Shown here one piece after another: positions 13,264-36,454 of a stretch of 36,454 bases of DNA. Both the position numbers and the translations under genes were made by a program. The DNA lies in the NCBI RefSeq assembly GCF_001879695.1, contig NZ_MNBL01000178.1, positions 1 through 36,454 on the forward strand, in the 5' to 3' direction. Within the stretch, counting starts at the first letter, position 1, and each line of letters starts with the position of its first letter. The notes under the pieces are model-generated. The model saw only the letters and a program-made list of their open reading frames with translations, was not told the DNA's origin and searched no databases. Source of the DNA: Nioella sediminis. GTDB taxonomy: Bacteria > Pseudomonadota > Alphaproteobacteria > Rhodobacterales > Rhodobacteraceae.

Positions 13264-13989
13264 TCAACTGATCTGGCCTGCGAGGCTGGTTCCTCCACAG
13301 ACGAAGAGCACCTGCCCGGTGACGAAACTCGACCTGTCATCCAGAAAGAAGAGGGCCGCGTTCGCAATATCCTCTGCGGTGCCGATCCGACGCACGGGGA
13401 TGCCGCCCGCGATTTTCTGCTGCTGCTCTCCATCCTTGGGCACGATGGCCCAGAAATTCTCGGTCAGCACAGGGCCGGGGGCGATTACGTTGACGGTGAT
13501 GCCCTTCGGGGCGAGCTCCAGCGCCCAGGTGCGTGCCAGCCCGTTGATCCCCGCCTTGGTCGCGGAATAGGCGGACCGGGTGGGCATGCCCTGCAAGGAC
13601 CGCGAACTGACGAAAACAACCCGCCCGCTGCCGCGCTCAACCATACCGGGCAGCGCCGCCTGGGTCAGGGCCATGGGTGCGGCAAGATGCAGTTGCGCAA
13701 GCTTCAGTACATCGGCAGGGTCGGCATCTTCCAACAGATTGGGCAGGATGAGGCCCGCATTATGGACGATAGCGTCGATCTGGTGGGTGGCGCAGATCCG
13801 GGCGGCCACCTCCGCCGTTTCCGCCGCATCGGTCAGGTCGGCGGTGTAGCCGAACAGGTCATCATGCCTGTCATCGGGCATCTCCAGCCCAAGCGACACG
13901 ACCGCCTCTCCCTTGGCCAGCAACGCCCGCCCGATAGCCGCGCCAATGCCGGAATTGCCGCCGGTGATCAGTGTCGTGCGCTTGCTCAT
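13264..13989 (-). CDS. Short-chain dehydrogenase/reductase (SDR)
   Basis: The 241-residue product is a complete classical SDR: cofactor motif TGGNSGIG (9-16), NAG (77-79), and the catalytic Ser129, Tyr141 and Lys145 (VSSRSLQ and YSATK). It oxidises or reduces an alcohol/ketone with NAD(P)(H); substrate unknown. It is the last gene of the Rieske operon and its start overlaps the cyclase stop by ATGA (13986-13989), which decides the start over an in-frame ATG at 14112. Unlike the SDR half of the DUF35 fusion two genes upstream, its active site is intact, so it may supply the real dehydrogenase step of the pathway. Confidence 0.9.
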   Translation of the reverse strand: MSKRTTLITGGNSGIGAAIGRALLAKGEAVVSLGLEMPDDRHDDLFGYTADLTDAAETAEVAARICATHQIDAIVHNAGLILPNLLEDADPADVLKLAQLHLAAPMALTQAALPGMVERGSGRVVFVSSRSLQGMPTRSAYSATKAGINGLARTWALELAPKGITVNVIAPGPVLTENFWAIVPKDGEQQQKIAGGIPVRRIGTAEDIANAALFFLDDRSSFVTGQVLFVCGGTSLAGQIS

Positions 13990-14777
13990 GCCGGTGCCCT
14001 TTCTACAAGTGCGATGACCCGAAGCGGGCTGCCCGAACCGCCCTCGATCTTCAGCGGACAGGCGACGATCATCGCGCCGAATGTGGGCAGCTTGTCGAGG
14101 TTCGTCAGGCATTGCAGCCCGTATCGCCCGTTGCCATGCAGGATCGAATGCGCGGGAAGCGGCGGGTTGAAGTGAAAGGCTTGGCCCGCATCGGTGCCCA
14201 CGGTTTCCACCGCCAGACCGACGCAGTCCCGCTCATGCACCAGAAACTCCATCGCGCTGCCATCGGGGCCGGGCGAATGAGTGCCATCCTCTTTCAGGTT
14301 CAGATATTCAGGCGTGCCGACGCGCTTGTACCAGTCGGTGCGCAGCGCGATCCAATGGCGCTTCGGGATTTCTCCGTGCTGTGCCTCCCAGTCTTCAAGG
14401 AAGGCGCGGGTCAGCACGAAATCCGCATCCGCTGCGGCCTCCTTCGATATGTCGATCACCACGACGGGGGCCACGAAATCCTGCGTGGGAACCGCATCGA
14501 CGGTGTTGGAGGGCAAGTCTTTCCCCGTCACCCAATGCGCAGGGGCGTCGAAATGGGTGCCGGTATGTTCATTCATCGAGATGTTGTTCCAGTACCAGGC
14601 CGGGCCATTGTCGTCGTAGCGAGACACCTTCTCCATCCGGAACGGGGCGCATTGGCCGAACTCGGCGGGCAGCACAATGACCGGGAAATCGGGGCTGAGC
14701 GTGTTGGTCAGGTCGATACATTCCACGGTGCGGTCGGCCAGCGCCTCGGCCAGCAAGGTCAGGGGTGAGCGGGTCAT
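13986..14777 (-). CDS. Cyclase-family metal hydrolase (kynurenine formamidase/isatin hydrolase superfamily)
   Basis: The 263-residue protein has the family's metal-binding signature HTGTHFDAPAHW at 71-82, giving H71, H75, D77 and H81. Family members hydrolyse cyclic or acyl amides and lactones with Mn or Zn: bacterial kynurenine formamidase opens N-formylkynurenine, and isatin hydrolase opens isatin to isatinate. The YWNNISMNEHTGTH context, with aromatic and Asn residues before the motif, would suit an aromatic lactam. In this operon a retro-aldolase-like protein lies two genes upstream and an aryl-oxoacid oxidoreductase (iorAB) elsewhere in the window, so isatin or a related lactam is an attractive but unproven substrate. 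Both its ends overlap neighbours by ATGA. Confidence 0.85.
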   Translation of the reverse strand: MTRSPLTLLAEALADRTVECIDLTNTLSPDFPVIVLPAEFGQCAPFRMEKVSRYDDNGPAWYWNNISMNEHTGTHFDAPAHWVTGKDLPSNTVDAVPTQDFVAPVVVIDISKEAAADADFVLTRAFLEDWEAQHGEIPKRHWIALRTDWYKRVGTPEYLNLKEDGTHSPGPDGSAMEFLVHERDCVGLAVETVGTDAGQAFHFNPPLPAHSILHGNGRYGLQCLTNLDKLPTFGAMIVACPLKIEGGSGSPLRVIALVERAPA

Positions 14778-16012
14778 CGGTTTTCCTCCCTCATGGTCAG
14801 AAGCGGGTTGGCCTGCCAGCGGGCAAAGAGATCCTTCGCGACATCCCCGGCGCAGGTGAATTCCTGTCCCTCGGTCAGGGCGTGTACGACCGCGCGGGCC
14901 AGTTGCCCCGGCACGACTTTCGGTTGCGGCAGGTCCTGGTGCCAGTCGTCATCGACAGGCCCGGTCAGGACCGACAGCACACGAATGCCGGTCTGCTGCA
15001 TCTCGCCACGCAGGCCGGAAAGAAGCGACAGTCGCGCGGCGGCGCTGGCGGCGGCACCGGCATAGCCGAATTGTCCGCTGAGGCCCGATACCGGTAAGAT
15101 GTCCAGAAATGCCGCGGCTGAATTCACACCGTCATCGGAACGCGCGCTCATGGCCGGGGCGAAGCCCTGTGCCAGCCGCACCAGCCCGAGAACGCCCAGA
15201 TCGAAACCGGCTTGCAGGTCGGAAAGCTTGGCCCCGAAGGCCACGCCGCCCGGGCGCACGAAGCAGGCGGTGTTGATCACGATATCGACCCGCCCGCCAA
15301 GTTGCGCGGCAAGCTCCTGCACGCTGCCGCTGTCGGTCATGTTCAGGGAAACCGGCTCGATGCCCTCCTGTGCCTCAATCTCCGCCTTGCCGGGATAGCG
15401 CATCAGCGGGTCAGCATCGCCAAGAAACACAGTCTGCGCCCCGGCCTTGAGAAGCGCACGCGCAATCGCCTGCCCGATGGCGGACCGCCCGTCCGTGACC
15501 AGAATCCGCCGGTGTTTCGGATGGGCCGTGAAACAGCGTAGCTGGGGATCGTCCTGCATGTTCGGGGTCTCCTCCTTCGGCATGGCGAACAGGGCGGGGT
15601 TGCCGCCCCGATCCAGCCGGAGTGTCATTCGAACCCGGTCGCCCTGATGCACATCGCCATGAAGATGCACGATGGCGACCGGTCCCGCGTCCAGGCGAAC
15701 GGTTCCGATCCGCCAGGGCATGTGGTTGCGAAAGAAATTGTCGGTGGAGTGGCGGATCGTGGTGACGGCCTCAACGCGTGCGCCGCTGTCCTGATCAACC
15801 CAGGTCAGCGTTCCCCAGCATGTCGGGCAACGGTCACGCGGCGGGTAGGTGACGGACCGGCACCGGTCACAGCTTTGCAGAACGAAACGCCCCTGCGCGG
15901 CATATGTCGCCATCTCGGTCGCAGCGCGGCTGCGCAGACCGGGGGGCACATGGCCGAGCGTACTGCGCCCTAGCGGGTCCTTGCGTTTGGGGGTGGGAAG
16001 CGGCTCGGTCAT
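14774..16012 (-). CDS. DUF35 zinc-ribbon/OB-fold protein fused to a degenerate SDR domain
   Basis: This 412-residue product joins two families. Residues ~30-145 form a DUF35 protein: a rubredoxin-like zinc ribbon (C48, C51, C62, C65 in SCDRCRSVTYPPRDRCPTC) followed by an OB fold. DUF35 proteins are obligate partners of thiolase-fold enzymes, as with ChsH2 and Ltp2 in sterol side-chain cleavage. Residues ~168-385 look like an SDR Rossmann fold, but the cofactor motif reads VTDGRSAIG, NAG is replaced by NTA, and the YxxxK motif is Y317-A-G-A-A321, losing the catalytic Lys. The SDR half is therefore probably structural or binding only. The ATG at 16012 overlaps the thiolase-like gene's stop by ATGA; a longer frame to 16132 is rejected. 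Confidence 0.8.
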   Translation of the reverse strand: MTEPLPTPKRKDPLGRSTLGHVPPGLRSRAATEMATYAAQGRFVLQSCDRCRSVTYPPRDRCPTCWGTLTWVDQDSGARVEAVTTIRHSTDNFFRNHMPWRIGTVRLDAGPVAIVHLHGDVHQGDRVRMTLRLDRGGNPALFAMPKEETPNMQDDPQLRCFTAHPKHRRILVTDGRSAIGQAIARALLKAGAQTVFLGDADPLMRYPGKAEIEAQEGIEPVSLNMTDSGSVQELAAQLGGRVDIVINTACFVRPGGVAFGAKLSDLQAGFDLGVLGLVRLAQGFAPAMSARSDDGVNSAAAFLDILPVSGLSGQFGYAGAAASAAARLSLLSGLRGEMQQTGIRVLSVLTGPVDDDWHQDLPQPKVVPGQLARAVVHALTEGQEFTCAGDVAKDLFARWQANPLLTMREENR

Positions 16013-17184
16013 CTCAGGGCCTGCCTTTCCAGCACCACAGCCCCGGTGCAGACGCCACGGTCGTAGTTCACAAGCCCGAAGCCCGAGACCAGCGCACGCT
16101 CGGCCCCCTGCACCCGATCGCCAAGGGGGCATCGCAGGATCTGCCGCAATCCCTCGGTCAGGTTCTGAAACCCACCCGCAGCACCTGCCTGCCCGGCAGA
16201 AAGCTGCCCGCCATTGGTGTTGAGCGGCAGGGAGCCCGAGATTGTGAATTCATTCGCGGCGATGAAGTCGGACAGGTCCGGTTTTTCGCAGAACCCGAGA
16301 TCGGCAAGCTGCATGGCCACGATCACCGGGTAATCGTCATAGACCTGCACGCAATGCATGTCCTCAGGCCGGCAGCCCGCGCGCTGCCAAAGTGCCTCGC
16401 GATCGCGTTCCCACCCACCGCGAAATTGCACACTGTCCTCGGCAAACGCGTTGTGACGCTCGATGGTGGCGAGGATGCGCGCCGATGAAAGCCCCAGCTC
16501 TTCAGCCTTCTTGGGGGTCGTGACCAGAAACGCCTCTGCCCCCGCGCAGGGCATCACGCAATCGAACAGATGCACCGGGTCCGAGATGGGCCGGGCGCTC
16601 ATGTATTGGTCCAGCGACAGCGGCTTGTTCATCAGCGCCAGCGGGTTGGACAGGGCATTCTTCCGCTGCGCCACGCAGAGCTTGCCGAAGGCCTCCCGCG
16701 TGACACCGAACTGGCGCATGAAATTGTCGGTGATCAGCGCAAAGGTCGCGTTCGGGCCGCCGAACCCGTAGGGATAGGTTGCGTCCTGGGAAAACCGTGA
16801 AAACCCGGCCAGCGTCTGGCGATAGCTGTCGATCTGGTTGGTATCGGCCGCCACGCAGGCCACCACCTCGGCGTCACCGCACTGCACGGCCCGCGCCGCG
16901 CGCCTGAGCGCCATGACCCCGCTGGCACCGCCTGTCGGGATATGGTCCATCCAGCGCGGGCTGAGGCCCAGATGCTGGACCATGCCCACGACCGTATCGG
17001 GCGCGGCAGAGAAGCTGGCAAAGCAGAAGCCGTCGATGTCGGCAGGTCCAAGGCCCGTCGTTTGCGCCAAGGATTGCAGGGCTGCACCCGCCCACCAATG
17101 GGCGGATTCGGGCGAGAACCTGACATAGGGCACAGTCGTCGGCGCACAGATCGCAACGCCCTCATATGGGGATTGCAGCCCCAT
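16009..17184 (-). CDS. Thiolase-fold protein without nucleophilic Cys, probable retro-aldolase (Ltp2/SCP-x type)
   Basis: The 391-residue protein belongs to the SCP-x/lipid-transfer thiolase-like group. At the place of the thiolase nucleophile the sequence is PTGGASG with Gly86 instead of Cys, and the usual NTHGG motif is NTNGG (N324), so thiolysis is unlikely. The VYDDYPVIVAMQLADLGFCEK segment (from 281) matches the VYD motif of Ltp2-type proteins, which cleave tertiary beta-hydroxyacyl-CoA esters by a retro-aldol reaction with a DUF35 partner; the next gene is a DUF35 fusion. The likely role is C-C cleavage releasing acetyl- or acyl-CoA and a ketone. ATGA overlaps join it to the ligase upstream and to the partner downstream. 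Confidence 0.8.
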   Translation of the reverse strand: MGLQSPYEGVAICAPTTVPYVRFSPESAHWWAGAALQSLAQTTGLGPADIDGFCFASFSAAPDTVVGMVQHLGLSPRWMDHIPTGGASGVMALRRAARAVQCGDAEVVACVAADTNQIDSYRQTLAGFSRFSQDATYPYGFGGPNATFALITDNFMRQFGVTREAFGKLCVAQRKNALSNPLALMNKPLSLDQYMSARPISDPVHLFDCVMPCAGAEAFLVTTPKKAEELGLSSARILATIERHNAFAEDSVQFRGGWERDREALWQRAGCRPEDMHCVQVYDDYPVIVAMQLADLGFCEKPDLSDFIAANEFTISGSLPLNTNGGQLSAGQAGAAGGFQNLTEGLRQILRCPLGDRVQGAERALVSGFGLVNYDRGVCTGAVVLERQALR

Positions 17185-18791
17185 CAGCGCTGCCGTTTCT
17201 TCAGGTGGCGGGTGTCGATGAAACCGCCCTGCGTGATGGTCTCTTCCAAGAGCCCTTTCAGCTTTCCACGCAGGATTTTCTGGGTGGCCGTCAGGGGCAG
17301 GTCTTCCACGAAGGCGATCCAGCCCGGCACCTTGTAATAGGCCATCTGGTCCAGCGCCCAGGTGGCAATCTCATGCGCTTTCTCCGGGCTGCTGCCGCCG
17401 CTTTCGAGGATCAGGAAGACCGCAACCTCATCACCGCGCAGCTCGTCGGGATGGGCAGCCGCTGCCGAGATGCGGATGTCTTCATGCCGATTAAGGATGC
17501 TTTCAACCTCTACGGCGGCGATGTTTTCGCCCGACCGGCGGATGACGTTCTTCTTGCGGTCAACGAAGTGAAGCGATCCGTCTTCGTCCTGAAGGACAAC
17601 ATCACCGGTGTTCAGCCACCCACCTTTCCACAGCTCAGCGGTGGCTTCCGAGTTCTTCAGGTATCCGGCACAAAACCCGTAGCGCGGGTTGGGGCCAGCC
17701 CGACGAACCAGCAGCTCTCCGGGTATTCCGGTAGCGGCATCCTGCCCGGCATCGTCCACGACCCGAACCTCAACATCGGTACAGGGCCGCCCGAAGCAGG
17801 AGGTGCCCACCTTGCGCGGCTCCTCATGGGCGCTGATAACGCCGCCGCTGCCGGTCTCGGTACAGGCCCATGCCTCGATCAGGGGGAAGCCGTAACGGGC
17901 TTCGAACTCGGCATGAAGCTTCGGGTCGACCCCGGCGCCAAAGCCGAAGCGCACATTATGGTCGCGATCGGCTGGCGATGGCTCCGCCCCCATCAGCATG
18001 GGCGGCATGACCCCGAGGTAATGCACGACCGTCGCCCGAGACTTGCGCACCGAGTCCCACCAGCTGCGCGGATGGAACCGGTCGAGCAGCGTCAGACAGC
18101 CGCCGGTGGTGATCATCGCCATGACAGAGACCGCCATGGCGTTCATGTGGAAAAGCGGCAGGGGGGTCAGCATACGTTCCGCATCGCGGCGCAGGCTGAT
18201 ATGGCCACCGGTTTCGGCGTACCAGTCGCCCGAATGCAGGAAGTATTCATTGGTCAGGATGCAGCCCTTTGGCCGTCCTGTCGTTCCCGACGTGTAAAGC
18301 AGCGCGCATTCGGTCCCGGCCCCCAGCTCTTCGGCAGCCGCTGCCGGGACGGGGGCCTTGGGAATGAAGTCATCGGGCGTGATAACCCGCGCAGGCGACC
18401 CCGCATTGGTCACCGCATCCGACATTTCCGCCACCCGGTCCGGCAGGACGATGGCCAGCACCATTTCCGAATGCTCTGCCAGGTATTCCAGTTCCGCCAG
18501 CCGCAGATCGGGATTGATCGGGACAACCGATGCGCCAAGGCTGTTCAGGGCGAGCCAGATCTCGATGAACACGGGCCGGTTTTGCAGCAGCAACCCCACC
18601 CGGTGCCCATGACCGACCCTGGCAGCAGCAAAACGATCCTCCCAGTCGGCAACACGCCGCGCCATCTCGGCATATGAAATGTCGCCTGCGGGAATGCCAT
18701 AGATCGCTGCGGTTTCTTCCAGCACATGCAGGAAGGGCGCGTCCCCGCGTCGGTTCGCGGTTTCTGCGAAGCGGCCACATACGGTGCTCAT
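17184..18791 (-). CDS. AMP-forming acyl-CoA ligase (ANL superfamily, CaiC-like)
   Basis: The 535-residue protein is a full ANL-superfamily ligase that activates a carboxylic acid to its CoA thioester through an acyl-adenylate. It shows the P-loop YTSGTTGRPKG (166-176), the EAWACTETG motif, the ribose-binding Asp in GGWLNTGDV, the hinge DRKKNVIRRSGENIA and the C-terminal Lys region (ATQKILRGKLK). It resembles carnitine/crotonobetaine and aryl-acid ligases but the acid cannot be read from sequence. It lies 13 bases after the Rieske beta-subunit gene and overlaps the retro-aldolase-like gene by ATGA, so it probably activates the oxygenation product for cleavage. Confidence 0.88.
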   Translation of the reverse strand: MSTVCGRFAETANRRGDAPFLHVLEETAAIYGIPAGDISYAEMARRVADWEDRFAAARVGHGHRVGLLLQNRPVFIEIWLALNSLGASVVPINPDLRLAELEYLAEHSEMVLAIVLPDRVAEMSDAVTNAGSPARVITPDDFIPKAPVPAAAAEELGAGTECALLYTSGTTGRPKGCILTNEYFLHSGDWYAETGGHISLRRDAERMLTPLPLFHMNAMAVSVMAMITTGGCLTLLDRFHPRSWWDSVRKSRATVVHYLGVMPPMLMGAEPSPADRDHNVRFGFGAGVDPKLHAEFEARYGFPLIEAWACTETGSGGVISAHEEPRKVGTSCFGRPCTDVEVRVVDDAGQDAATGIPGELLVRRAGPNPRYGFCAGYLKNSEATAELWKGGWLNTGDVVLQDEDGSLHFVDRKKNVIRRSGENIAAVEVESILNRHEDIRISAAAAHPDELRGDEVAVFLILESGGSSPEKAHEIATWALDQMAYYKVPGWIAFVEDLPLTATQKILRGKLKGLLEETITQGGFIDTRHLKKRQR

Positions 18792-18804
18792 TCTGACAGG
18801 CCCC

Positions 18805-19278
18805 TCAAATGAACAGCTGAAGATTGCCGAAGGGCGCGTCGAAATTGATCAGGTCAACACGCTTGAGCATGATCTTCAGTGCACCTTCGACCTCCACCAG
18901 TTCATGACTGACCCAACCCGAATAGCGCTCCAGATTATCGCCACGAGTTTCGGTGTAGATGAAGGAGGTGCGCAGCCTGTAGATGCCATCCTCCTGCCCA
19001 AGCGACAGGACGCGGGGACGCTGCATCAGGTGATGACAGCGGCTTTTCGGTTTCTGGCTGAAGGTGCGTTCACCCGATAGCCGTTCCACCCGGACCGTCA
19101 GCAAAAGCTGGTCTTCATACATGAGCGAGGGTTGCAAAACTGGGTCTTGCTGCTGCCATTCCAGCGGCATCCAGTAGAGCCCGTCCTGATGGAACAGCGC
19201 CAGCCAGTCCTCCCACCGCATCTCGTCCAGCGTGGCGGCCTCTTCATAGACGAAATCTATCAGCTGCTCGGGGCTCAT
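18805..19278 (-). CDS. Rieske aromatic-ring-hydroxylating oxygenase, beta subunit
   Basis: The 157-residue product is a small NTF2-fold beta subunit of a ring-hydroxylating oxygenase (FVYEEAATLDEMRWEDWLALFHQDGLYWMPL, then a conserved C-terminal SGWVSHELVEVEGALKIMLKRVDLIN). It supports the alpha3beta3 assembly and has no cofactor of its own. The ATG at 19278 overlaps the alpha-subunit stop by ATGA and begins the family's usual N-terminus (MSPEQLIDFVYEEA); the in-frame start at 19329 lies inside the alpha gene and is rejected. Confidence 0.9.
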   Translation of the reverse strand: MSPEQLIDFVYEEAATLDEMRWEDWLALFHQDGLYWMPLEWQQQDPVLQPSLMYEDQLLLTVRVERLSGERTFSQKPKSRCHHLMQRPRVLSLGQEDGIYRLRTSFIYTETRGDNLERYSGWVSHELVEVEGALKIMLKRVDLINFDAPFGNLQLFI

Positions 19279-20615
19279 GCGCTGGCCTCCACTTTCTGAT
19301 CCATCCCCTGAACCATGAATTTCCGCCATGCATAGAAGGTGTTGCGCATCTGCCGTTCCGAGGTGCCGTTAACGACTTCGGTCACATCCTCAGGCTCCCC
19401 CTCCTCGTAAAGCCTGCGCAGGTTGATCCACTCATTGGCGTCTGACAGCAGGCCCTCCTGCGCGCGTTCGTACATTTCCAGATCGTCATGCCCGACGATG
19501 GAGGTGGGCGCATTGATGAAGCGGTTATACATCAGCGCGCGTTCGTAGATCTTGTCCGGTGCCCCCACCAGCCGGAAGGCCCAGCTTTCCACCAGGGTCT
19601 TGTCGACAGCTATCGGAATGAAGTTGCGCAGGATGCCGACCGGCCCCTTCACCATCACATTGGGGAAGTAGAGCGTGTTGTGCCGGATATCGCCGAGGAT
19701 TTCGCGGGCGCGGGTTTCGCCGTAAGCCTCGACCATCATGTCGAGATAGCCTTCGACATCGTCATAATCCTGATGGATCGACCCCGACACGCCGGAATGC
19801 CCGTGGCCATTGGGCCAGACCCGGATGCCTGCGCCTTCGTAGAATTCATAGGGGCTCATGAAGGGCGCATAAAGCTGCACGGCCATCGGAGTTTCCGTGA
19901 AGCGGTGCTTTTCGCGTTCCCACACGCTGACGGCCGTGCCCGCGCTGCTTTCATGGGCCACCATCGGGTGGCAGGTGTCGGTCTGGTTGTCGACCAGCAT
20001 CTTCCAGTTGCAGGTATGCATATAGCGGATCGGCGCAGCGATGATCTCGACCTCGCCCTGTGGTGAGCGATCCACCATGTTGTCGATCGTCGAAAGGGAG
20101 TCTCCGAAATACTCCTCGAAGCTCAGCCCGGTGTCCGACAGGCGGGCAAAGATGAAGCCCCGGTAGATCTGCACGTTCTCGACCCGGGGCAGCCCCTTCG
20201 ACGCCTTGTCAGCTTCGAACCCGGTGCCTTCGTAGCCCTTCTTCAAAGGGATCGCTAAAAGCGATCCATCGGTCTTGAAGCTCCAGGCATGGTAGGGACA
20301 GCGGAAGAACTTGCCGGTGTTGCCGCAGGGCTCGGACGCGATCTTGACGCCCTTGTGGGGGCAGCGGTTGTGCAGCACGTGGATGGTGCCGTTCTTATGC
20401 CGCGACACCAGAATGGGCTGATGGCCGATCTTGCAGGTGATGTAGTCGCCGGGGTTCTTCAGCTGGCTCTCATGCCCGACATAGACCCAGGAATTCGGAA
20501 AAAGCTGCTCCATCTCCAGATCGAAGATTTCGCGGTCGACATAGACGTCGCGATGTACGGCATGCCCCTGAACCAGGTTTTCAACGGCTCTCGGGTTTCC
20601 ACGGTATCGTTCCAT
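19275..20615 (-). CDS. Rieske aromatic-ring-hydroxylating oxygenase, alpha subunit
   Basis: The 446-residue product is the catalytic subunit. The Rieske [2Fe-2S] ligands are C85 and H87 (NRCPHKG) and C106 and H109 (RCPYHAW). The mononuclear iron site is visible as D213, H216 and H221 in DNQTDTCHPMVAH, the Asp bridging electron transfer between subunits. Substrate classes of Rieske oxygenases include benzoates, salicylates, phthalates and indole-acetic acid; the sequence alone does not choose. The ATG at 20615 has AAAGGAGA upstream; the earlier open frame to 20717 overlaps the reductase gene and is rejected. The reductase gene ends 22 bases upstream and the beta gene overlaps the stop. Confidence 0.93.
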   Translation of the reverse strand: MERYRGNPRAVENLVQGHAVHRDVYVDREIFDLEMEQLFPNSWVYVGHESQLKNPGDYITCKIGHQPILVSRHKNGTIHVLHNRCPHKGVKIASEPCGNTGKFFRCPYHAWSFKTDGSLLAIPLKKGYEGTGFEADKASKGLPRVENVQIYRGFIFARLSDTGLSFEEYFGDSLSTIDNMVDRSPQGEVEIIAAPIRYMHTCNWKMLVDNQTDTCHPMVAHESSAGTAVSVWEREKHRFTETPMAVQLYAPFMSPYEFYEGAGIRVWPNGHGHSGVSGSIHQDYDDVEGYLDMMVEAYGETRAREILGDIRHNTLYFPNVMVKGPVGILRNFIPIAVDKTLVESWAFRLVGAPDKIYERALMYNRFINAPTSIVGHDDLEMYERAQEGLLSDANEWINLRRLYEEGEPEDVTEVVNGTSERQMRNTFYAWRKFMVQGMDQKVEASA

Positions 20616-20637
20616 GCTGGTCTCCTTTGGCTGTTGG

Positions 20638-24520: not shown

Positions 24521-24601
24521 GGTTTCCTCTCTGCCGGTGGTGTGGCGTGCAGGTTTTGCGAGCTTTGCCATCCACTTTCTGTTCGTAGGACAGGCATAGC
24601 A

Positions 24602-29625: not shown

Positions 29626-29642
29626 AGGTAGCCTCCTTCGGA

Positions 29643-30677
29643 TTATTCGGTGTCCGGGGCGGTGATTTCTGCCGCCTCGTCGGATTGCTGGGGAACGGTG
29701 GCGGTCTGCCCCGAGAGCGTGACCGGGGCCTGGGGCCGCTGGTTCACCGCCAGATTGAAGATGTCGAACCGGTTGTAGTGGCCGGTGATGTCGTGCATCT
29801 GCTTGGGCTGGATGCATTTCCCGAGGTCGATCTCGGCATAGACGATGCCCTCGTCGTCGATCAGGCCCGGTACCACCTCGCGCCCGTCGGGGCCGATGAC
29901 CCCGGAATAGGCGCTGGATTTGCGTTGCAGCAGCTCGCGCGCATCGGGGCGGATGTCTTCCATCGCCGCGATGATCTCTTCCGACACGGTTGAAGTGGCG
30001 GTCACCGTAAAGACCTTGCCCTCAAAACTGTGCGACATGCTGCGCAGCTTGATGGCTTCGGCCATGTCGTAATCCTTGGGGGCGACGGGCAGCGAGATAT
30101 AGCTGGCCGTGTGCACCAGTTCACCCTGTGCAAGCAGGCTGAACCGGGCCAGCGTGTTGGTATTCTCGCCACAGGCCAGACCGCCGAGCGGCCCGATTGT
30201 GGTGTCATAGACCCTAAGGCTCGATCCGTCCCCGCCCGCCCAGGTCAGTTTTTCGGCCCAGGTCGGCACCAGCTTTCGGTGCTTGCCGATCACCGAACCA
30301 TCCGGCCCGATAAAGAGCAGCGTGTTGTAAAGCGCGCCCAGGGATACCGGGCTACGTTCATTGAACCCGATCACCACATGGCAGCCATTGGCCTTGGCAG
30401 CGTCGCGGATTACGCCGATTTCCGGCCCATCCGCAAAGACCGATGCACGCACCAGTCTCTCAAACCATGCCCCGCCGGTGACCGGGTCGGTGATCCAGTT
30501 CCAATAGGGGTAACCGGGAATGAACACCTCGGGGAAGACGACAAGCGACGCCCCGTTCGCGGCCGCCTCAGCAATCAGTCCGGCGGCTTTCTCGGCGGTT
30601 CTCAGCGCGTCCAGAAAGACCGGGCTTGCCTGCACAGCGGCGGCGGTGAATTTCAGAAAGTCCTTGCCAGGCAACAT
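29643..30677 (-). CDS. Nitrilase (C-N hydrolase family)
   Basis: The 344-residue protein has the catalytic triad E50 (VVFPEVFIPGYPYW), K135 (GKHRKLVPT) and C169 (GGLACGENTNTLARF), with the CGENxN motif of true nitrilases, which convert a nitrile to a carboxylic acid and ammonia without a free amide. The aromatic or arylaceto-nitrile specificity cannot be read from sequence. The acidic Thr/Pro-rich tail after about residue 310 is normal in nitrilases. It starts only 2 bases after the aminotransferase stop and is followed by the dioxygenase with a 17-base gap, so it is in the aromatic operon. It could feed an arylacetic acid, for example from indole-3-acetonitrile. Confidence 0.9.
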   Translation of the reverse strand: MLPGKDFLKFTAAAVQASPVFLDALRTAEKAAGLIAEAAANGASLVVFPEVFIPGYPYWNWITDPVTGGAWFERLVRASVFADGPEIGVIRDAAKANGCHVVIGFNERSPVSLGALYNTLLFIGPDGSVIGKHRKLVPTWAEKLTWAGGDGSSLRVYDTTIGPLGGLACGENTNTLARFSLLAQGELVHTASYISLPVAPKDYDMAEAIKLRSMSHSFEGKVFTVTATSTVSEEIIAAMEDIRPDARELLQRKSSAYSGVIGPDGREVVPGLIDDEGIVYAEIDLGKCIQPKQMHDITGHYNRFDIFNLAVNQRPQAPVTLSGQTATVPQQSDEAAEITAPDTE

Positions 30678-30679
30678 CG

Positions 30680-32068
30680 CTATTTCTCCTGTTCGTACCG
30701 GCGCAATGCCTTGATCAGCCCATCGACGATCTTGTCGGTTTCAGCTTCAGAGAGTGTCAGGGGCGGCGAGATGATGACGACCGGCCCGGCGGGGCGCACG
30801 ATCACGCCCTCGTCACGCGCGAAGGTCGCCACTATTTCCCCCTGCCCTTTTCCGGGGTCGATGGGTTCACGCGTGTGCTTGTCGGCCACCAGATCAAGCC
30901 CGACCATCAGCCCCTTGCCGCGCACTTCACCCACAAGCGAGGACCAGTTCGGCACGTCGCTCAGCCCATCCAGCAACCGCTTGCCCATCCGGGCGGCATT
31001 GCCGGGCAGGTCTTCGTCCTCGACGATTTTCAGCGTGGCATTGGCGGCGGCGCAGCCCAGCGCGTGGCCGGTGGCCGTGTAGCCGTGCATGATGAAGCCC
31101 ATCGGATCGATGCCCTTCTGCCAGGCTGCATAGATCCGCTTGTTGATCACCGTCGCGCCCAGCGGGATGTAGCCCGCCGTGATGCCCTTGGCGAAACACA
31201 TGATGTCGGGTTTCACGCCCCAACCGCGTGCACCGAACATCGCGCCGGTGCGCCCGAACCCGGTCACCACCTCGTCCGAGATGAGGAGGATGCGGTGCGC
31301 GTCGAGTAGTGTTCGCAGGCGGGGCCAGAAGCTTGCGGGAGGAACAATAACGCCCCCGGCCCCCTGCACCGGCTCGGCAATGAAGGCTGCGATCGTATGC
31401 GCGCCCTGATGCCGGATCAGCCGGTCGATTTGTGTGATGATTGCCTCGGTCAGTTCTTCCGGGTCTTCGGAATAGGGGTTTCGATAGGTCCAGGGGCTGT
31501 CCACCTGATAGCAACCGGGCAACAGCGGTCCATAGGCGGAGCGATAAAGGCTGGACCCGTTGACCGAGGTGCCCCCGAACTGAATGCCGTGATAGCCCTG
31601 CTTGAGCGAGATGAAGCCGGTTCGCTCCGGCTCTCCCTCCAGCTTCCAGTATTGGCGGCTGAGCTTGAGCGCGGTTTCAACCGCGTCTGACCCGTTGGCA
31701 GAGAACAGGACCTTGCTCATGTCCTCCTCTGCCGTCATCTCGATGATCTTGGCAGACAGCTCGATGGAGGGGGGCGTCGCGGTTCCTGCGAAGCTGGAAT
31801 AGTAGCTGATCTCCTCCATCTGGGCAGAAATCGCCGCTTTCACCTCGGGCCGGTTATGTCCGACGTTGACGTTCCACAGCCCGCCGACACCATCGACATA
31901 GGTGTTTCCGTCGATATCGGTGACGTAAGACCCCTCTCCCTTCACGATGATCCGCGGCGGGCGCTGTTCGATGATCAGGGGATGCACCATCGGGTGAAGC
32001 TGGTGACGCCCGTTGTGTTCGCGCAGGAAATTGTCATTGCGGTTCGGGTTCTCGTGTTTCGTGCTCAT
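30680..32068 (-). CDS. PLP-dependent class III aminotransferase (omega-transaminase type)
   Basis: The 462-residue protein is a class III aminotransferase with the PLP Lys in CFAKGITAGYIPLGA (K294), the cofactor Asp in ISDEVVTGFGRTG (D265) and the SANGSDAVETALKL phosphate-binding segment. Members move the amino group of omega-amino acids or amines to pyruvate or another 2-oxo acid, forming an aldehyde or ketone. It follows an aldehyde dehydrogenase gene, so an amine-to-aldehyde-to-acid conversion is likely. The ATG at 32068 with GAGG upstream is chosen; the GTG at 32077 would overlap the ALDH stop by four bases and is an alternative. Confidence 0.88.
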   Translation of the reverse strand: MSTKHENPNRNDNFLREHNGRHQLHPMVHPLIIEQRPPRIIVKGEGSYVTDIDGNTYVDGVGGLWNVNVGHNRPEVKAAISAQMEEISYYSSFAGTATPPSIELSAKIIEMTAEEDMSKVLFSANGSDAVETALKLSRQYWKLEGEPERTGFISLKQGYHGIQFGGTSVNGSSLYRSAYGPLLPGCYQVDSPWTYRNPYSEDPEELTEAIITQIDRLIRHQGAHTIAAFIAEPVQGAGGVIVPPASFWPRLRTLLDAHRILLISDEVVTGFGRTGAMFGARGWGVKPDIMCFAKGITAGYIPLGATVINKRIYAAWQKGIDPMGFIMHGYTATGHALGCAAANATLKIVEDEDLPGNAARMGKRLLDGLSDVPNWSSLVGEVRGKGLMVGLDLVADKHTREPIDPGKGQGEIVATFARDEGVIVRPAGPVVIISPPLTLSEAETDKIVDGLIKALRRYEQEK

Positions 32069-32073
32069 CGCCC

Positions 32074-33588
32074 TCACCTCACCGCAACGCAGACGGACTT
32101 CGTTTCGAGATACGCATCCAGCGCAGCACGACCGTGCTCGCGGCCAATGCCGGATTGCTTGTACCCGCCGAACGGCATGTTCGCGTCGGGCAGGTTGTGG
32201 GCATTCACCCAGACCGTGCCCGCCTGGATCTGCGGCACGTAGCGGTGCATCGTGTTCAGGTTCGTCGTCCAGATCGACGCGCCAAGCCCGTAGCGGGTGT
32301 CATTGGCCATGCGGATTGCGTCGTCGGGATCATCGAAGGGCGTGATCGTGAAGACCGGACCGAAAACCTCGTCCTGCATGATCTTCATGTCCTGCCGGAC
32401 ATCGGTGAAGATCTGCGGCGTCACGAAAAACCCGTCGCCCTGATAGGCATCGTTTCCCAGCAACGGGGTTGCGCCCTGGTCCAGACCGCTGGCGACACAG
32501 GCGTTCACATGGGCCTGATGCTTGGCCGAGACCATGGGGTTGATGGCATTCGCCGGGTCAAGCCCCGGTCCGATGGCCATACCGCCCACGGTCCGCGCCA
32601 TGACCTCGCAAACCTGATCGTAGATCCCCCTTTGGGCATAGATCCGGGTCCCCGCACAGCAGGTCTGGCCAGAGTTGAACAGCACCCCGACACCGGCAGC
32701 CATGGCCAGCTGATCGAGGTCCATATCGTCGAACATGATCATCGGCGCCTTGCCACCCAGTTCCAGCGTGACCCGCTTCATGTCCTGCATGGCTTGAATA
32801 CCGATGATCTTGCCCACCTCGGTCGAACCGGTGAAGGTCAGCTTGTTCACGCCGGGATGCGCGGTCAGCGCCGCGCCCGCCTCGGCCCCGGTGCCGGTCA
32901 CGACATTGACGACGCCCGGCGGCAACCCCGCCTCAAGACACAGCTCGCCCAGCCGCAACGACGTGAGCGGCGTTTCCTCGGCGGGTTTCAGAACCACCGT
33001 GTTGCCGCAGGCCAGCGCCGGGGCAATCTTCCAGATCGCCATGTTCAGCGGGAAGTTCCACGGCGTGATCGCGCCAACGACGCCCACCGGCTCCTTGCGC
33101 GTATAGGCCTGGTATTTTGCGCCGGGCGGCACCGCGATGGATACGTCGATGGTGGAGCCTTCGATCTTGGTGGCCCATCCCGCCATGTACCGCAGGTAGT
33201 TGGAGGAATTGCCCACCTCGACCAACCGCGACAGCATCACCGATTTGCCGTTGTTCAGTGTTTCCAGCTGCGCCAGTTCCTCGCCATTGGCCTCGATCAG
33301 GTCCGCCAGCCGCAGCATGACGCGCTGACGTTCCACCGGGCGCATCCGGCCCCAGTCCCCGTTCAGCGCTTCACGAGCGCGCTGAACGGCCAGGTCGATC
33401 TCATGGGCACCACCGCGCGGCACTTCAGCGAGTTTCTTGCCGGTCGCCGGGTTGAAAGCATTGAGTGTCCGGCCATCCGCGGCCCCCGTCCGCTCAGCCC
33501 CCAAAAGCATCTTCGGCGGCGAATCGAGGTAGTCTGAGACCGCCGGGAGAATCTCCGAGACCAGACTATCGGGTCGGGCTACGTGCAT
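32074..33588 (-). CDS. Aldehyde dehydrogenase, phenylacetaldehyde dehydrogenase-like
   Basis: The 504-residue protein is a full NAD(P)-dependent ALDH with N178 (TPWNFPLNMA), FTGSTEVGK (252-260), E276 (LELGGKAP) and C310 (NSGQTCCAG). The pattern LNNGKSVMLSR and the extended N-terminus resemble phenylacetaldehyde and other arylacetaldehyde dehydrogenases. It could oxidise the aldehyde formed by the aminotransferase encoded next, giving an arylacetic acid. It is the first gene of the long minus-strand operon and is divergent from iorA. The start at 33588 lies nine bases after an AGG sequence; a TTG at 33597 is less likely. Confidence 0.88.
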   Translation of the reverse strand: MHVARPDSLVSEILPAVSDYLDSPPKMLLGAERTGAADGRTLNAFNPATGKKLAEVPRGGAHEIDLAVQRAREALNGDWGRMRPVERQRVMLRLADLIEANGEELAQLETLNNGKSVMLSRLVEVGNSSNYLRYMAGWATKIEGSTIDVSIAVPPGAKYQAYTRKEPVGVVGAITPWNFPLNMAIWKIAPALACGNTVVLKPAEETPLTSLRLGELCLEAGLPPGVVNVVTGTGAEAGAALTAHPGVNKLTFTGSTEVGKIIGIQAMQDMKRVTLELGGKAPMIMFDDMDLDQLAMAAGVGVLFNSGQTCCAGTRIYAQRGIYDQVCEVMARTVGGMAIGPGLDPANAINPMVSAKHQAHVNACVASGLDQGATPLLGNDAYQGDGFFVTPQIFTDVRQDMKIMQDEVFGPVFTITPFDDPDDAIRMANDTRYGLGASIWTTNLNTMHRYVPQIQAGTVWVNAHNLPDANMPFGGYKQSGIGREHGRAALDAYLETKSVCVAVR

Positions 33589-33658
33589 GTTTTTCAACCT
33601 TTTTTTACTTCTCTTCCGCGTCAGGCAACAATCGCCATCGCGAAACGTCTTGACTTAC

Positions 33659-33693
33659 TTTACATATAAAATTATCCATTTCCATATAATTTT
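33659..33693. promoter_or_regulatory. Tandem AT-rich motif pair in the ALDH/iorA divergent promoter region
   Basis: The sequence TTTACATATAAAATT (33659-33673) is followed exactly 20 bases later by TTTCCATATAATTTT (33679-33693), two near-identical direct repeats on the same face of the helix. The first copy is identical over 14 bases to the site upstream of tctC and shares ATATAAAATTAT with the palindrome in the Rieske promoter. The pair lies 13-47 bases before the iorA start and could serve both directions. A TTGACT (33650-33655), 17 bases, TATCCA pairing is a possible iorA promoter, with a weak -10. Confidence 0.55.
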
Positions 33694-33705
33694 TGGGAGA
33701 CACAA

Positions 33706-35880
33706 ATGGCCGAACGCTCATTTGCCAAGGAAGTGGAACATCTGAAGCTGGGGGACGGAGACGTCTTTCGCGGCGAGGGAATTCTCGCGATCACCAAGGC
33801 GCTTCTGCAGTCGGGCATATCCTATGTGGGCGGCTATCAGGGCTCGCCGATCTCGCATCTGATGGACGTGCTGGCCGATGCGAATGACATTCTCGATGAT
33901 CTTGGCGTGAACTTCCAAAGCTCCGCGAACGAAGCGACAGCAGGCGCGATGCTGTCAGCCTCGGTCATGTATCCCCTTCGCGGGGCGGTGGCCTGGAAAT
34001 CGACGGTAGGGACCAATGTCGCGTCCGACGCGCTGGCCAATCTCGCCTCGGGCGGGGTCAAGGGCGGCGCCATGGTCATCGTGGGTGAGGATTACGGCGA
34101 AGGCTCCTCCATCATGCAGGAACGCACCCACGCGTTCGCGATGAAATCCCAGATGTGGCTGCTCGATCCCCGGCCTGATCAGGAATGCATGGTCAATCTG
34201 ATTGAAAAGGGGTTTGAGCTTTCTGAGGCTTCGAACACACCCGTTATGCTACAGGTTCGGGTCCGGTCCTGTCATATGACCGGACAGTTTGTTTGCAAGG
34301 ACAACAAGCGGCCCGAGTTCACCCTTCAGGACGCCCTGAACAGCCCCAAGCGCGACCTTGACCGGATCGTTCTGCCCCCTGCGGCCTATGCCCATGAGGT
34401 CGAGAAGATCGAACACCGCCTGCCGGCGGCGATCGACTTCGTGAAACAGGCCGGGCTGAACGAACATTTCGGCCCGACGGGTGCGGACAAGACCGGAAAG
34501 ACCGGGCTGATCGTGCAGGGCGGCATGTATAACAGCACCATCCGGGCGCTGCAGTTCCTGGGCCTTAGCGATGCCTATGGCGAGACAAAGCTGCCGATCT
34601 ACGTGATGAATGTCTGCTATCCGACCATCACCAGCGAGATCGAGGCGTTTTGCGAGGGGCTGGACGCGGTGCTGGTCGTCGAAGAAGGGCAGCCAGAGTT
34701 CATTGAGCAATCCATCACCACGACCGTTGCGCGACTGCAAAGACAAACGCGCGTGCATGGCAAGAAATACCTGCCCATGGCGGGCGACTACACGGTCGCG
34801 GCGCTGACCAAGGGCATCGGTCAGTTTCTGGAGGATCACGAGGCGCAGCTTCTGGGCAATCGGGCACCTACGCCAGACCCCGTCCCGATCCTGCGCGATC
34901 CGAAGGTTGCGGCCTTGACAGAGGTTATTCCCCCTCGCCCGCCGGGCCTGTGCACAGGTTGCCCTGAACGCCCGATCTTCGCAGCCATGAAACTGGCCTT
35001 CGAAGAGTTGGGGGAACATCACGTTTCTGCCGATATCGGCTGTCACCTGTTCTCGATCCTGCCCCCCTTCAATATCGGCGCGACGACGATGGGCTACGGG
35101 CTTGGCGCTGCGTCCTCGGCCGCGTTCAACGTCAAGGGTGCCAAGCGGTCGATCTCGATCATGGGCGATGGTGGGTTCTGGCACAACGGGCTGACCAGCG
35201 GCATCGGTCATGCGGTCTTCAACAAGCATGACGGGGTCTTCCTGATCGTCGACAACTACTACTCCTCGGCCACTGGCGGGCAGGACATCCTGTCGTCCCG
35301 TGCAGTGAACAAGCGGCGGGTGACCAACAATTCGATTGTCGATGCGGTTCGGGGCGTGGGGGCCAAATGGGTCCGGCAGATCGACCGCACCTATGACGTG
35401 AACCGGATGCGCGACGTTCTGAAAGAGGCGCTGACCACCGATGCGGAAGGCCCCAAGATCATCGTCGCTTCGTCCGAATGCATGCTGAACAAGCAACGCC
35501 GGGTGAAGCCGCAAGTGGCAAAGGCGATGAAAGACGGCAAGCGGACGGTCAAGGAACGCTTCGGCGTCGATGAGGATGTCTGCACTGGCGATCACGCTTG
35601 CATCCGTCTGTCCGGCTGTCCCTCGCTGTCTGTCAAAGAACTAGACGACCCCCTGCGCGACGACCCGGTCGCCGCGATCGACAGCACCTGCGTGGCCTGC
35701 GGCAATTGCGGAGAAGTGGCGGATGCCGCCGTGCTGTGCCCGTCCTTCTACCGAGCCGAGGTCATCCACAATCCTGGCCCCTGGGATCGCTTCAAGGCCG
35801 GGCTGTCAACGCCCGTGATCAGGTTTCTTCAGAACCGCCGGGCGCGTCGGGCTGTTGATTTCGGGGGAATGGGCCAATGA
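33706..35880 (+). CDS. iorA: Indolepyruvate ferredoxin oxidoreductase, alpha subunit (IorA-like)
   Basis: The 724-residue protein is an IorA-type 2-oxoacid:ferredoxin oxidoreductase subunit: an N-terminal pyrimidine-binding domain (GEGILAITKALLQSG...GGYQGSPISHLMD), a TPP domain with GDG at 487-489 followed by DNYYSSATGGQD, and a C-terminal ferredoxin-like region with Cys clusters at about 626-639 and 662-677 (CVACGNC). Family members decarboxylate arylpyruvates to aryl-acyl-CoA with reduced ferredoxin. In this neighbourhood an aryl-glyoxylate such as isatinate is an alternative substrate. It is divergent from the ALDH gene, starts after GGGAGA, and overlaps iorB by ATGA (35877-35880). Confidence 0.9.
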   Translation: MAERSFAKEVEHLKLGDGDVFRGEGILAITKALLQSGISYVGGYQGSPISHLMDVLADANDILDDLGVNFQSSANEATAGAMLSASVMYPLRGAVAWKSTVGTNVASDALANLASGGVKGGAMVIVGEDYGEGSSIMQERTHAFAMKSQMWLLDPRPDQECMVNLIEKGFELSEASNTPVMLQVRVRSCHMTGQFVCKDNKRPEFTLQDALNSPKRDLDRIVLPPAAYAHEVEKIEHRLPAAIDFVKQAGLNEHFGPTGADKTGKTGLIVQGGMYNSTIRALQFLGLSDAYGETKLPIYVMNVCYPTITSEIEAFCEGLDAVLVVEEGQPEFIEQSITTTVARLQRQTRVHGKKYLPMAGDYTVAALTKGIGQFLEDHEAQLLGNRAPTPDPVPILRDPKVAALTEVIPPRPPGLCTGCPERPIFAAMKLAFEELGEHHVSADIGCHLFSILPPFNIGATTMGYGLGAASSAAFNVKGAKRSISIMGDGGFWHNGLTSGIGHAVFNKHDGVFLIVDNYYSSATGGQDILSSRAVNKRRVTNNSIVDAVRGVGAKWVRQIDRTYDVNRMRDVLKEALTTDAEGPKIIVASSECMLNKQRRVKPQVAKAMKDGKRTVKERFGVDEDVCTGDHACIRLSGCPSLSVKELDDPLRDDPVAAIDSTCVACGNCGEVADAAVLCPSFYRAEVIHNPGPWDRFKAGLSTPVIRFLQNRRARRAVDFGGMGQ

Positions 35881-36454
35881 AAGACGACACAGTGAAACTG
35901 CCCCTTGCGGCAGAGGCCGATGCGACCGAACGCCCGCTATCCATTGCCATCGTGGCCATGGGCGGACAGGGCGGCGGAGTGCTGACCGGCTGGATCGTCG
36001 ATCTGGCTGAGCGGCAGGGCTGGATTGCGCAATCCACCTCCGTCCCCGGCGTAGCGCAGCGCACCGGGGCCACGATCTACTATGTCGAGATGATGAAGCC
36101 CGGCGAAGACGGGCGCAAACCGGTGCTGGCACAGATGCCGACGCCGGGCGATGTGGATGTGGTCATTGCTGCCGAATACATGGAGGCCGGACGCTCGATC
36201 CTGCGCGGGATCGTCACGCCCGAACGCACGACCCTCATCGCCTCCAACCACCGCGCCCTGTCGACCATCGAGAAGATGGCGCCGGGCGAAGGCATCGCAG
36301 ACAGCGGCGCGGTGTCAGAGGCCATCGGCGTTGTCGCAAAGCGGCAGATCGTGTTCGACATGAACCGGCTGGCGGTCGAAAACGGGTCGGTGATTTCCTC
36401 GGCGCTGTTCGGAAGTCTAGCAGCCTCTCGCGCGCTGCCGTTTTCCGTGGAGGA
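35877..36454 (+). CDS. iorB: Indolepyruvate oxidoreductase, beta/gamma subunit (IorB-like), cut by window end
   Basis: The first 192 codons are visible: after a ~21-residue leader comes AIVAMGGQGGGVLTGWIVDLAE, the glycine-rich N-terminal motif of the 2-oxoacid oxidoreductase gamma domain, then STSVPGVAQRTGATIYYVEM and a conserved segment AAEYMEAGRSILRG. It is the partner of IorA and binds CoA. Its ATG overlaps the iorA stop by ATGA, so the two are cotranscribed and translationally coupled. The frame stays open to the edge. Bacterial IorB proteins of this type are often longer than the archaeal ones, so more domains may follow outside. Confidence 0.88.
   Translation, partial: MKDDTVKLPLAAEADATERPLSIAIVAMGGQGGGVLTGWIVDLAERQGWIAQSTSVPGVAQRTGATIYYVEMMKPGEDGRKPVLAQMPTPGDVDVVIAAEYMEAGRSILRGIVTPERTTLIASNHRALSTIEKMAPGEGIADSGAVSEAIGVVAKRQIVFDMNRLAVENGSVISSALFGSLAASRALPFSVE

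Follow-up and report, generated by a model that had tools for sequence, protein, structure and literature searches.

What becomes of auxin once a bacterium has turned it into anthranilate? The papers on iad loci for the degradation of indole-3-acetate (IAA), which like the other literature here are cited for parts of their text, follow auxin to anthranilate and give iadA and iadB no step. In this work, we have analysed an iad locus from Nioella sediminis, a marine alphaproteobacterium, lying on contig C88 (NZ_MNBL01000178.1); the window is this entire contig, 36,454 bases of a 3.96-Mb genome, and its end falls inside iorB. The IadD protein of a genome of the same genus (G186) is 97% identical to that of the window. 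Our preferred explanation, in which we have reasonable confidence, is that of an iad-type IAA island furnished with a retro-aldolase, a ring-cleavage extension and a common operator. A reading of the same DNA from its letters alone (the sequence-only reading) had drawn a Rieske oxygenase and iorAB locus for IAA; all the gene classes that it named are present at or near the places given for them, as judged by profile and PDB sequence matches. Its route and chemistry largely held, but the locus type was already known, and it left unnamed, between iorA and iadC, a dioxygenase (28501-29625), a FAA hydrolase, a maleate isomerase, a tripartite transporter and a sulfatase.

The core of the locus is a colinear iadCDEFGHIJ cluster, on the minus strand from 13264 to 21582:

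20638..21582, minus strand: iadC, reductase (Fer2 and NAD_binding_1), 78% identical to that of Ruegeria pomeroyi DSS-3; the open reading frame (ORF) opens at 21648 and the start was taken from the 945-nt DSS-3 gene

19275..20615, minus strand: iadD, Rieske oxygenase alpha subunit, 53% identical to PDB 9o71; the ORF opens at 20717 and the start was set at Met35

18805..19329, minus strand: iadE, oxygenase beta subunit (PF00866)

17184..18791, minus strand: iadF, AMP-forming acyl-CoA ligase (PF00501, 197 bits)

16009..17184, minus strand: iadG, thiolase-fold protein, proposed retro-aldolase (YDDY motif, residues 282-285)

14774..16132, minus strand: iadH, DUF35 zinc domain fused to a degenerate short-chain dehydrogenase/reductase (SDR) (zf-ChsH2 and OB_ChsH2_C)

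13986..14777, minus strand: iadI, isatin hydrolase family (5nnb, isatin hydrolase A, 363 bits)

13264..14112, minus strand: iadJ, SDR dehydrogenase with YSATK (PF13561, 155 bits)

The order of these gene classes, C-D-E-F-G-H-I-J, is that of the operon in a 2025 preprint (PMC12633357), where iadC is a reductase, iadD/E are the Rieske subunits and iadF is an acyl-CoA synthase, followed by iadG, iadH, iadI and iadJ; the first three of these are annotated there as acetyltransferase (ketothiolase), alcohol dehydrogenase and kynurenine formamidase. Synteny with a characterised IAA-degradation locus, which the sequence-only reading had left to be looked for, is thus present. The route that it had drawn, from IAA by way of dioxindole-3-acetate and its CoA ester to isatin and isatinate, comes close to the published iad pathway (PMC9613470, PMC12633357), whose first step the preprint revises to a monooxygenation and in which it detects a C8H7NO2 intermediate. 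The Rieske range of 19275-21582 proves right for the alpha subunit and the reductase, and too narrow for the beta subunit at 18805-19329.

It had also been asked whether the Rieske alpha subunit would cluster with salicylate or phthalate oxygenases. It does not: two IadD-like PDB sequences are by far its best matches (545-551 bits), the next family reaches 144 bits, phthalate 3,4-dioxygenase 120 and salicylate 5-hydroxylase 97. Among the NCBIfam profiles, those of benzoate and anthranilate dioxygenases match with 198 and 176 bits, which might be taken to speak for a salicylate, benzoate or phthalate oxygenase, but these scores fall far under the cut-offs (781 and 672) and under the IadD match, the cofactor and pocket residues fit IadD, and we consider that reading, which we rejected on the PDB sequence scores, extremely improbable. 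The residues in question are the 14 iron-sulfur, iron and IAA-pocket positions named for IadD in PMC10374108, whose numbering is fixed because all 14 letters agree with PDB 9o71 at an offset of 16. Thirteen of them are identical in the window protein; the remaining one, L211, is a Gln, which is invariant in the 12 IadD sequences of the family. In addition, both genes of the pair described as exclusive markers of iad-like loci, iorB/iadB and iotA/iadA (PMC9613470), occur in the window, iorA complete and iorB as its start only. Given this gene order, these IadD scores and residues and the iorAB markers, the route of the sequence-only reading matches the established pathway, and we hold it as nearly certain that the core is a known iad-type locus as described in Variovorax. 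No MarR regulator IadR was found among the window proteins scanned, the contig stopping in iorB; in R. pomeroyi DSS-3 two MarR genes come after iorB and a thioesterase gene. The locus shares with the published one the iadC-J order, the IorAB markers and the IadD residues, and its relative in DSS-3 also has the MarR genes downstream of iorB; the published accounts stop at anthranilate, whereas the window adds between iorA and iadC a ring-cleavage module with a common putative operator.

How is the CoA ester cleaved? The sequence-only reading had assigned this step to a Cys-less thiolase-fold protein with a DUF35 partner, acting by retro-aldol, and the residues of IadG and IadH fit this better than the ketothiolase label of the preprint. 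The closest solved sequence to IadG is the aldolase Sal (9myr, 167 bits), and the AlphaFold2 model of IadG (pLDDT 82.6) ranks Sal-Shy(DUF35) first, Ltp2-ChsH2(DUF35) next and thiolases after these. In the sequence alignment Y282 of the YDDY motif, which is invariant in the 44 aligned IadG rows (43 distinct), is placed with Tyr294 of Ltp2, the catalytic base. In Sal the motif reads YDCY, and a Gly stands where thiolases have their nucleophilic Cys (PMC12329534). "Cys-less" applies to IadG residues 55-101, which a sequence alignment places with the Gly-rich loop of Sal and which hold no Cys at all, hence none in the place of the thiolase nucleophile, but not to the rest of the protein, with its 12 cysteines. 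The third motif residue is the invariant Asp284, where Ltp2 has His and Sal has Cys, and on this account we call IadG a third variant of the DUF35-dependent retro-aldolases.

The zinc cysteines of IadH (C88, C91, C102 and C105) are kept in 36-37 of 37 rows (36 distinct). In its SDR half no row has a Lys at the YxxxK place, three have a YxxxK elsewhere in that half, and the glycine-rich motif searched for matches none; the catalytic SDR motifs are missing from these proteins, whose residues do not bear out the label of alcohol dehydrogenase given in the preprint. Moreover, in all five of the Alcaligenaceae loci L103, L105, L107, L110 and L113 the iadH gene consists of the DUF35 domain alone. 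The partner of Sal, Shy, is built in a similar way: an enzyme is fused to a DUF35 part, and it is the latter that binds the aldolase (PMC11321319). IadG-IadH therefore resembles the steroid side-chain retro-aldolases Sal-Shy and Ltp2-ChsH2 in its thiolase fold, the catalytic Tyr in YDxx, the DUF35 zinc partner and the fusion of that partner to another domain, and differs from them in having YDDY rather than YDHF or YDCY, and a degenerate SDR (or DUF35 alone) rather than a MaoC hydratase. On these residues and domains, IadG-IadH is very probably a retro-aldolase complex yielding isatin and acetyl-CoA. The C8H7NO2 intermediate is two hydrogens richer than isatin, so that, if the cleavage is retro-aldol, a reductase other than the SDR half of IadH would be needed. 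A paralogous aldolase pair lies next to iad on the plasmid of Sulfitobacter THAF37 (L121, 9448-11129), where another thiolase-fold protein (56% to IadG) is accompanied by an OB-fold partner of its own, with a TRAP transporter and a ligase alongside.

The next enzymes are those that would carry isatin to anthraniloyl-CoA. The four best PDB matches of IadI are isatin hydrolases (269-363 bits), and the cyclase-family protein of the sequence-only reading indeed belongs to the isatin hydrolase superfamily. The iorAB genes diverge from the rest, beginning beside the aldehyde dehydrogenase gene and overlapping by an ATGA at 35877:

33706..35880, plus strand: iorA/iadA, 2-oxoacid:ferredoxin oxidoreductase alpha subunit, with thiamine pyrophosphate (TPP) site and Fe-S cysteines (TIGR03336, 280 bits, cut-off 651)

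35877..36454, plus strand: iorB/iadB, start only, running off the contig end (TIGR03334 at 35940-36446, below cut-off)

The window iorA is 91% identical to that of DSS-3, where iorB is complete and PRK08312 scores above its cut-off. Since the C-terminal cysteines 626, 632, 638, 662, 665, 668 and 678 are conserved in all 53 aligned sequences, IorA looks like a true ferredoxin oxidoreductase. In another locus, L166, a relative of isatin hydrolase (43%), iorA, iorB, a RidA protein, the dioxygenase and a flavin reductase stand together with no iadD/iadE match, which points to isatinate as the substrate of IorAB and lends indirect support to the role that had been suggested for it. The iorA gene of R. 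pomeroyi (SPOA0111) appears in a transposon-mutant study with a fitness of -0.12 in one multi-bacterial treatment, listed under auxin signalling (PMC10041152).

Which genes separate iorA from iadC? Between 33597 and 13264 all the main genes are on the minus strand, mostly less than 90 bases apart, and read in that direction they come in the order aldehyde dehydrogenase, class III aminotransferase, nitrilase, gentisate-type dioxygenase, FAA hydrolase, maleate isomerase, TctB, TctA, TctC, sulfatase and iadC to iadJ; about 280 bases separate the sulfatase gene from iadC. Three of these genes make up the putative ring-cleavage module:

28501..29625, minus strand: two-iron bicupin "gentisate 1,2-dioxygenase" (type A), with both His triads (3bu7, 838 bits); the ORF opens at 29817 and the start was set at codon 65

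27566..28483, minus strand: FAA-fold hydrolase, candidate maleyl(amyl)pyruvate hydrolase (PF01557, 241 bits)

26788..27564, minus strand: maleate cis-trans isomerase, Asp/Glu-racemase-like (4fq7, 326 bits)

The dioxygenases of the loci examined fall into two groups with a clean gap between them: of 86 distinct sequences, the window protein among them, 64 others share 60% identity or more with it and 21 share no more than 38%. The resulting 65 type-A sequences form one clade in a maximum-likelihood tree (support 100/99); both His triads are present in 60 of them, the other five being gapped at the last position, whereas none of the 21 canonical gentisate dioxygenases keeps the second, C-terminal triad. 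By its residues, the window enzyme differs from canonical gentisate 1,2-dioxygenase in retaining that triad. It resembles the Ruegeria (Silicibacter) pomeroyi enzyme GDOsp (3bu7), which is cited as a bicupin holding two ferrous centres (PMC10306065) and has two metal sites per subunit. The likely gene for GDOsp, SPO_RS20405 (91% to the window protein), lies within the iad island of the DSS-3 megaplasmid, a context of which the available text of the literature on 3bu7 makes no mention. The FAA hydrolase scores 131 bits against the maleylpyruvate hydrolase 6jvv and best, 210 bits, against 8sky. In the isomerase the cysteines of YACLV and SACVQMPS, which we take to be the catalytic pair, are both kept and aligned with those of 4fq7; the second is Ala in 4fq5. 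These three genes are, on balance, probably a ring-cleavage extension of iad.

Two other arrangements touch on this module. In family genome G092 a second locus (L156, about 4700-14200), which may encode a sister pathway acting on a different indolic acid, combines another Rieske pair (32-35% to IadD/IadE) with 80% IadI, 72% IadF, a FAA hydrolase, a two-iron dioxygenase, a thioesterase and MarR. In L060, L076 and L083, iad loci of marine metagenome-assembled genomes (MAGs), a glutamine-amidotransferase-like gene and a thioesterase gene adjoin the dioxygenase, with no match to the nitrilase or maleate isomerase; the amidotransferase-like protein could be an amide hydrolase.

Is the module controlled together with iad? 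A palindrome occurs at three places:

33659..33670, no strand: palindromic site TTTATATGTAAA, between iorA and the aldehyde dehydrogenase gene

24610..24621, no strand: palindromic site TTTATATGTAAA, upstream of tctC

21623..21634, no strand: palindromic site TTTATATATAAA, upstream of iadC

Allowing at most one mismatch to TTTATATRTAAA, these three places in the window compare with 0.01 matches expected. In 83 related loci (1.71 Mb, at most one mismatch) the site precedes iorA in 23 of 51 and iadC in 5 of 79, and 15 further copies lie elsewhere; with so few iadC sites, the case for a shared operator, strong in the window, is weaker outside it. The palindrome is probably the operator of a MarR-type repressor, and its positions suggest that the ring-cleavage operon is regulated together with iad.

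The association recurs beyond the window. We examined 80 named iad loci, the best 80 of 478 relatives, with no Variovorax record among them, and counted the dioxygenase as linked when it was at least 55% identical and within about 10 kb of iadD, some genes being cut by the end of the stretch. By this measure 51 of the 80 have it, in several arrangements: 38 are Bradyrhizobium-type (one labelled Frankia) and 13 are others. The one labelled Frankia sp. RB7 (L052) has its dioxygenase inside the Bradyrhizobium clade, so either the record is mislabelled or contaminated, or the gene was transferred. FAA hydrolase was found in 22 of the 80, nitrilase in 38 and maleate isomerase in six, many stretches ending early. 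The 10-kb stretch does not include iadG, iadH or iadI in Bradyrhizobium; IadG and IadI were found in all eight genomes searched (that of the MAG behind L087 and seven of Bradyrhizobium), and in five loci (four Bradyrhizobium and one proteobacterial MAG) iadGHI share a contig with the other iad genes, about 8-12 kb beyond the dioxygenase/FAA gene. The six dioxygenase-bearing Alcaligenaceae loci all carry on one strand an IorB-like gene, MarR, a thioesterase, a PRK08255-family hydroxylase, the dioxygenase, the FAA hydrolase, the nitrilase, iadI and iadC-J. The arrangement on the DSS-3 megaplasmid (L120/L123) differs from that of the window: the iad operon and the dioxygenase module point towards each other, with an IS5-type transposase, a CHAT-domain gene and an AAA ATPase between them.

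The hydroxylase of the Alcaligenaceae belongs to the salicylyl-CoA 5-hydroxylase / 2-aminobenzoyl-CoA monooxygenase-reductase family (PRK08255, cut-off 1078 bits), which is exceeded in Alcaligenes (1310), Bradyrhizobium (1345) and L164, which has no iad (1253); a more distant hydroxylase beside iad in L094 scores 1010, under the cut-off. The window genome also has a homologue above the cut-off (1296 bits), but on another contig, C40, whereas the gene is beside iad genes in the Alcaligenaceae and beside iadGHI in two of the five Bradyrhizobium/MAG loci. A hydroxylase was present in 13 of the 16 records searched at E 1e-100. The family suggests another fate for anthraniloyl-CoA: dearomatisation by a 2-aminobenzoyl-CoA monooxygenase/reductase (ABM) cluster followed by beta-oxidation, the dioxygenase only clearing 5-hydroxyanthranilate as a side-product. 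The ABM route is established in Azoarcus (PMC4539516), the C40 protein neighbours an SDR, a MarR-like protein and an enoyl-CoA hydratase, and the iad loci L094, L097, L099 and L106 have a 44-45% relative of the hydroxylase with no dioxygenase in the stretch. We nevertheless find this fate rather improbable, as the hydroxylase, dioxygenase and FAA hydrolase are adjacent in all six Alcaligenaceae loci and the maleate isomerase accompanies the dioxygenase in several alphaproteobacterial forms, which suggests that the dioxygenase is on the main route.

The genes around the module bear on a further possibility:

32074..33597, minus strand: aldehyde dehydrogenase, phenylacetaldehyde dehydrogenase-like (NF045735, 694 bits, cut-off 850)

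30680..32077, minus strand: class III aminotransferase (NF005683, 720 bits, above the cut-off of 575)

29643..30677, minus strand: nitrilase (CGEN, Cys169; best PDB matches nitrilases, 190-212 bits)

26211..26750, minus strand: TctB, tripartite tricarboxylate transporter (PF07331)

24655..26199, minus strand: TctA, tripartite tricarboxylate transporter (PF01970, 439 bits)

23579..24571, minus strand: TctC, solute-binding protein (PF03401)

21860..23521, minus strand: sulfatase-family hydrolase (PF00884, 161 bits)

The marine locus might degrade 5-hydroxyindoles, with serotonin or its sulfate going to 5-hydroxyindole-3-acetate and on to 5-hydroxyanthranilate by way of the sulfatase, aminotransferase and aldehyde dehydrogenase upstream and without need of a separate hydroxylase. 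Both in the window and in DSS-3, where the sulfatase adjoins the same Tct genes, the aminotransferase and aldehyde dehydrogenase precede the dioxygenase and the sulfatase follows the transporter, and the Gln at L211 makes one pocket position of IadD polar. Nevertheless, that Gln is the one invariant in the family, the Bradyrhizobium and Alcaligenaceae dioxygenase loci lack all three genes at 55% identity or more (60% for the sulfatase), the sulfatase occurs in one of the 80 named loci, and the Alcaligenaceae loci include the hydroxylase; a search of titles for degradation clusters for 5-hydroxyindoleacetate or serotonin gave nothing relevant. We regard this possibility as remote. As the sequence-only reading had suggested, the acid is probably supplied from a nitrile, an amine or an aldehyde through the nitrilase, aminotransferase and aldehyde dehydrogenase. 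We also considered the nitrilase as the maleamate amidase for cleavage of 5-hydroxyanthranilate, and rejected it: its PDB matches are true nitrilases (at most 212 bits) and then cyanide hydratases, against 53 bits for a beta-ureidopropionase-type entry and at most 26 for named amidases and formamidases. The Bradyrhizobium japonicum nitrilase blr3397 hydrolyses arylaliphatic nitriles, and at a guess it may be the nitrilase of the iad locus.

The module might also be an unrelated gentisate pathway merely placed beside iad. Its homologue 3bu7 carries the name of gentisate dioxygenase, and several type-A dioxygenases occur away from iad (L158-L163, with no iad genes in the stretch). Both points also count against our preferred explanation. 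Yet the linkage recurs in several gene arrangements, none of the 80 loci has a dioxygenase match under 50% identity at E 1e-10, and module and iad have the palindrome in common, so that we judge a chance neighbourhood unlikely.

Other observations also weigh against the extension and should be set beside it. The hydroxylase is outside the window, and in DSS-3 about 330 kb from the module. The 38 Bradyrhizobium-type loci among the 51 linked are not independent, 29 of the 80 have no dioxygenase in the stretch examined (some stretches being short), the maleate isomerase is confined to its six loci, and the Alcaligenaceae IorB (36-38%) and thioesterase (30-33%) are distant. We found in the literature no test of 3bu7 on 5-hydroxyanthranilate, and 5-nitrosalicylate dioxygenase, a related monocupin, reportedly shows no activity with this compound (PMC10306065). 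In the preprint iadC-K2 gave anthranilate in the absence of iadAB (PMC12633357), and IorAB is therefore not essential for anthranilate. Finally, in the 198 genomes of the family, the window's own included and with at most eight candidates scored per genome, iad is present in 16; the type-A dioxygenase is in 8 of these and in 6 of the other 182, the canonical one in 12 and in 22. Since the association with iad is about equally strong for the canonical enzyme and for type A, co-occurrence in genomes is not specific, only physical linkage is, and we have dropped the former as evidence.

We propose the following pathway. By homology to the published operon, IadCDE would oxygenate IAA, and IadJ, IadF and IadI would perform the published steps. 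The residues and domains of IadG suggest that, held by the DUF35 domain of IadH, it would split dioxindole-3-acetyl-CoA into isatin and acetyl-CoA by retro-aldol, and those of IadI that it would convert isatin to isatinate. From linkage, IorAB may turn isatinate and CoA into anthraniloyl-CoA, and a PRK08255-family 5-hydroxylase (on C40 in the window genome) and a thioesterase may lead on to 5-hydroxyanthranilate. The two-iron dioxygenase would open the ring either of 5-hydroxyanthranilate itself or, if deamination comes first, of gentisate; pyruvate would be released by the FAA hydrolase, and the maleate isomerase would yield fumarate. Judging from gentisate chemistry, a cut beside the amino-bearing carbon of 5-hydroxyanthranilate should give an amide, so that an amidase would be needed; deamination to gentisate first would call for a deaminase. 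One palindromic operator could switch the iad operon, tctC-sulfatase and the divergent iorA/ring-cleavage promoter together. We advance more tentatively, as a possibility that we hold to be doubtful, the fullest form of this proposal: that the iad-linked bicupin is a 5-hydroxyanthranilate 1,2-dioxygenase forming a maleamyl-type product, which with IorAB, a PRK08255 anthraniloyl-CoA 5-hydroxylase and the thioesterase would be the genetic basis of the "gentisate branch" of anthranilate and of complete auxin mineralisation, IadG/IadH forming a third (YDDY) class of retro-aldolases.

Outside the locus, the window has an integrase-core (transposase) fragment at 13-552 and, at 2760-11601, two aldehyde dehydrogenases, an enolase-superfamily protein, a 2-hydroxyacid dehydrogenase, a NMT1/THI5-like ABC transporter and a DapA-family protein, a group that looks unrelated to iad and perhaps serves sugar-acid catabolism.

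An anthranilate-to-gentisate branch was proposed biochemically for Nocardia opaca (1968) and Alcaligenes In3 (1983), which we know through reviews. A 2018 review states that the gene had not been revealed (PMC6221969), PMC8383072 cites the same work for IAA, and PMC4539516 cites 5-hydroxyanthranilate in Nocardia. In the accessible parts of the literature we found no assignment of a gene to a gentisate step with IAA, anthranilate or isatin, only the Alcaligenes and Nocardia proposals; "gentisate" and "gentis" are absent from the main text of the iad papers, although the gene may be drawn in figures or supplements. Thus the iad core was already known, while the extension, the YDDY retro-aldolase variant and the shared operator were not found in print (mostly open-access text, without figures or supplements). 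The chemistry proposed here is that of N. opaca and Alcaligenes In3, and Alcaligenes genomes have the candidate gene set; those were biochemical proposals, whereas ours concern candidate genes.

What do these results mean for the biology of auxin degradation? The locus and its relatives suggest a fate of auxin beyond anthranilate and name candidate genes for it, the Alcaligenes loci supplying candidates for most steps of the anthranilate-to-gentisate branch, and the likely roles of IadG and IadH are revised. A close relative of the locus lies on the DSS-3 megaplasmid, in an organism for which transposon-mutant work exists (PMC10041152), so that the proposal can be tested there by gene removals.

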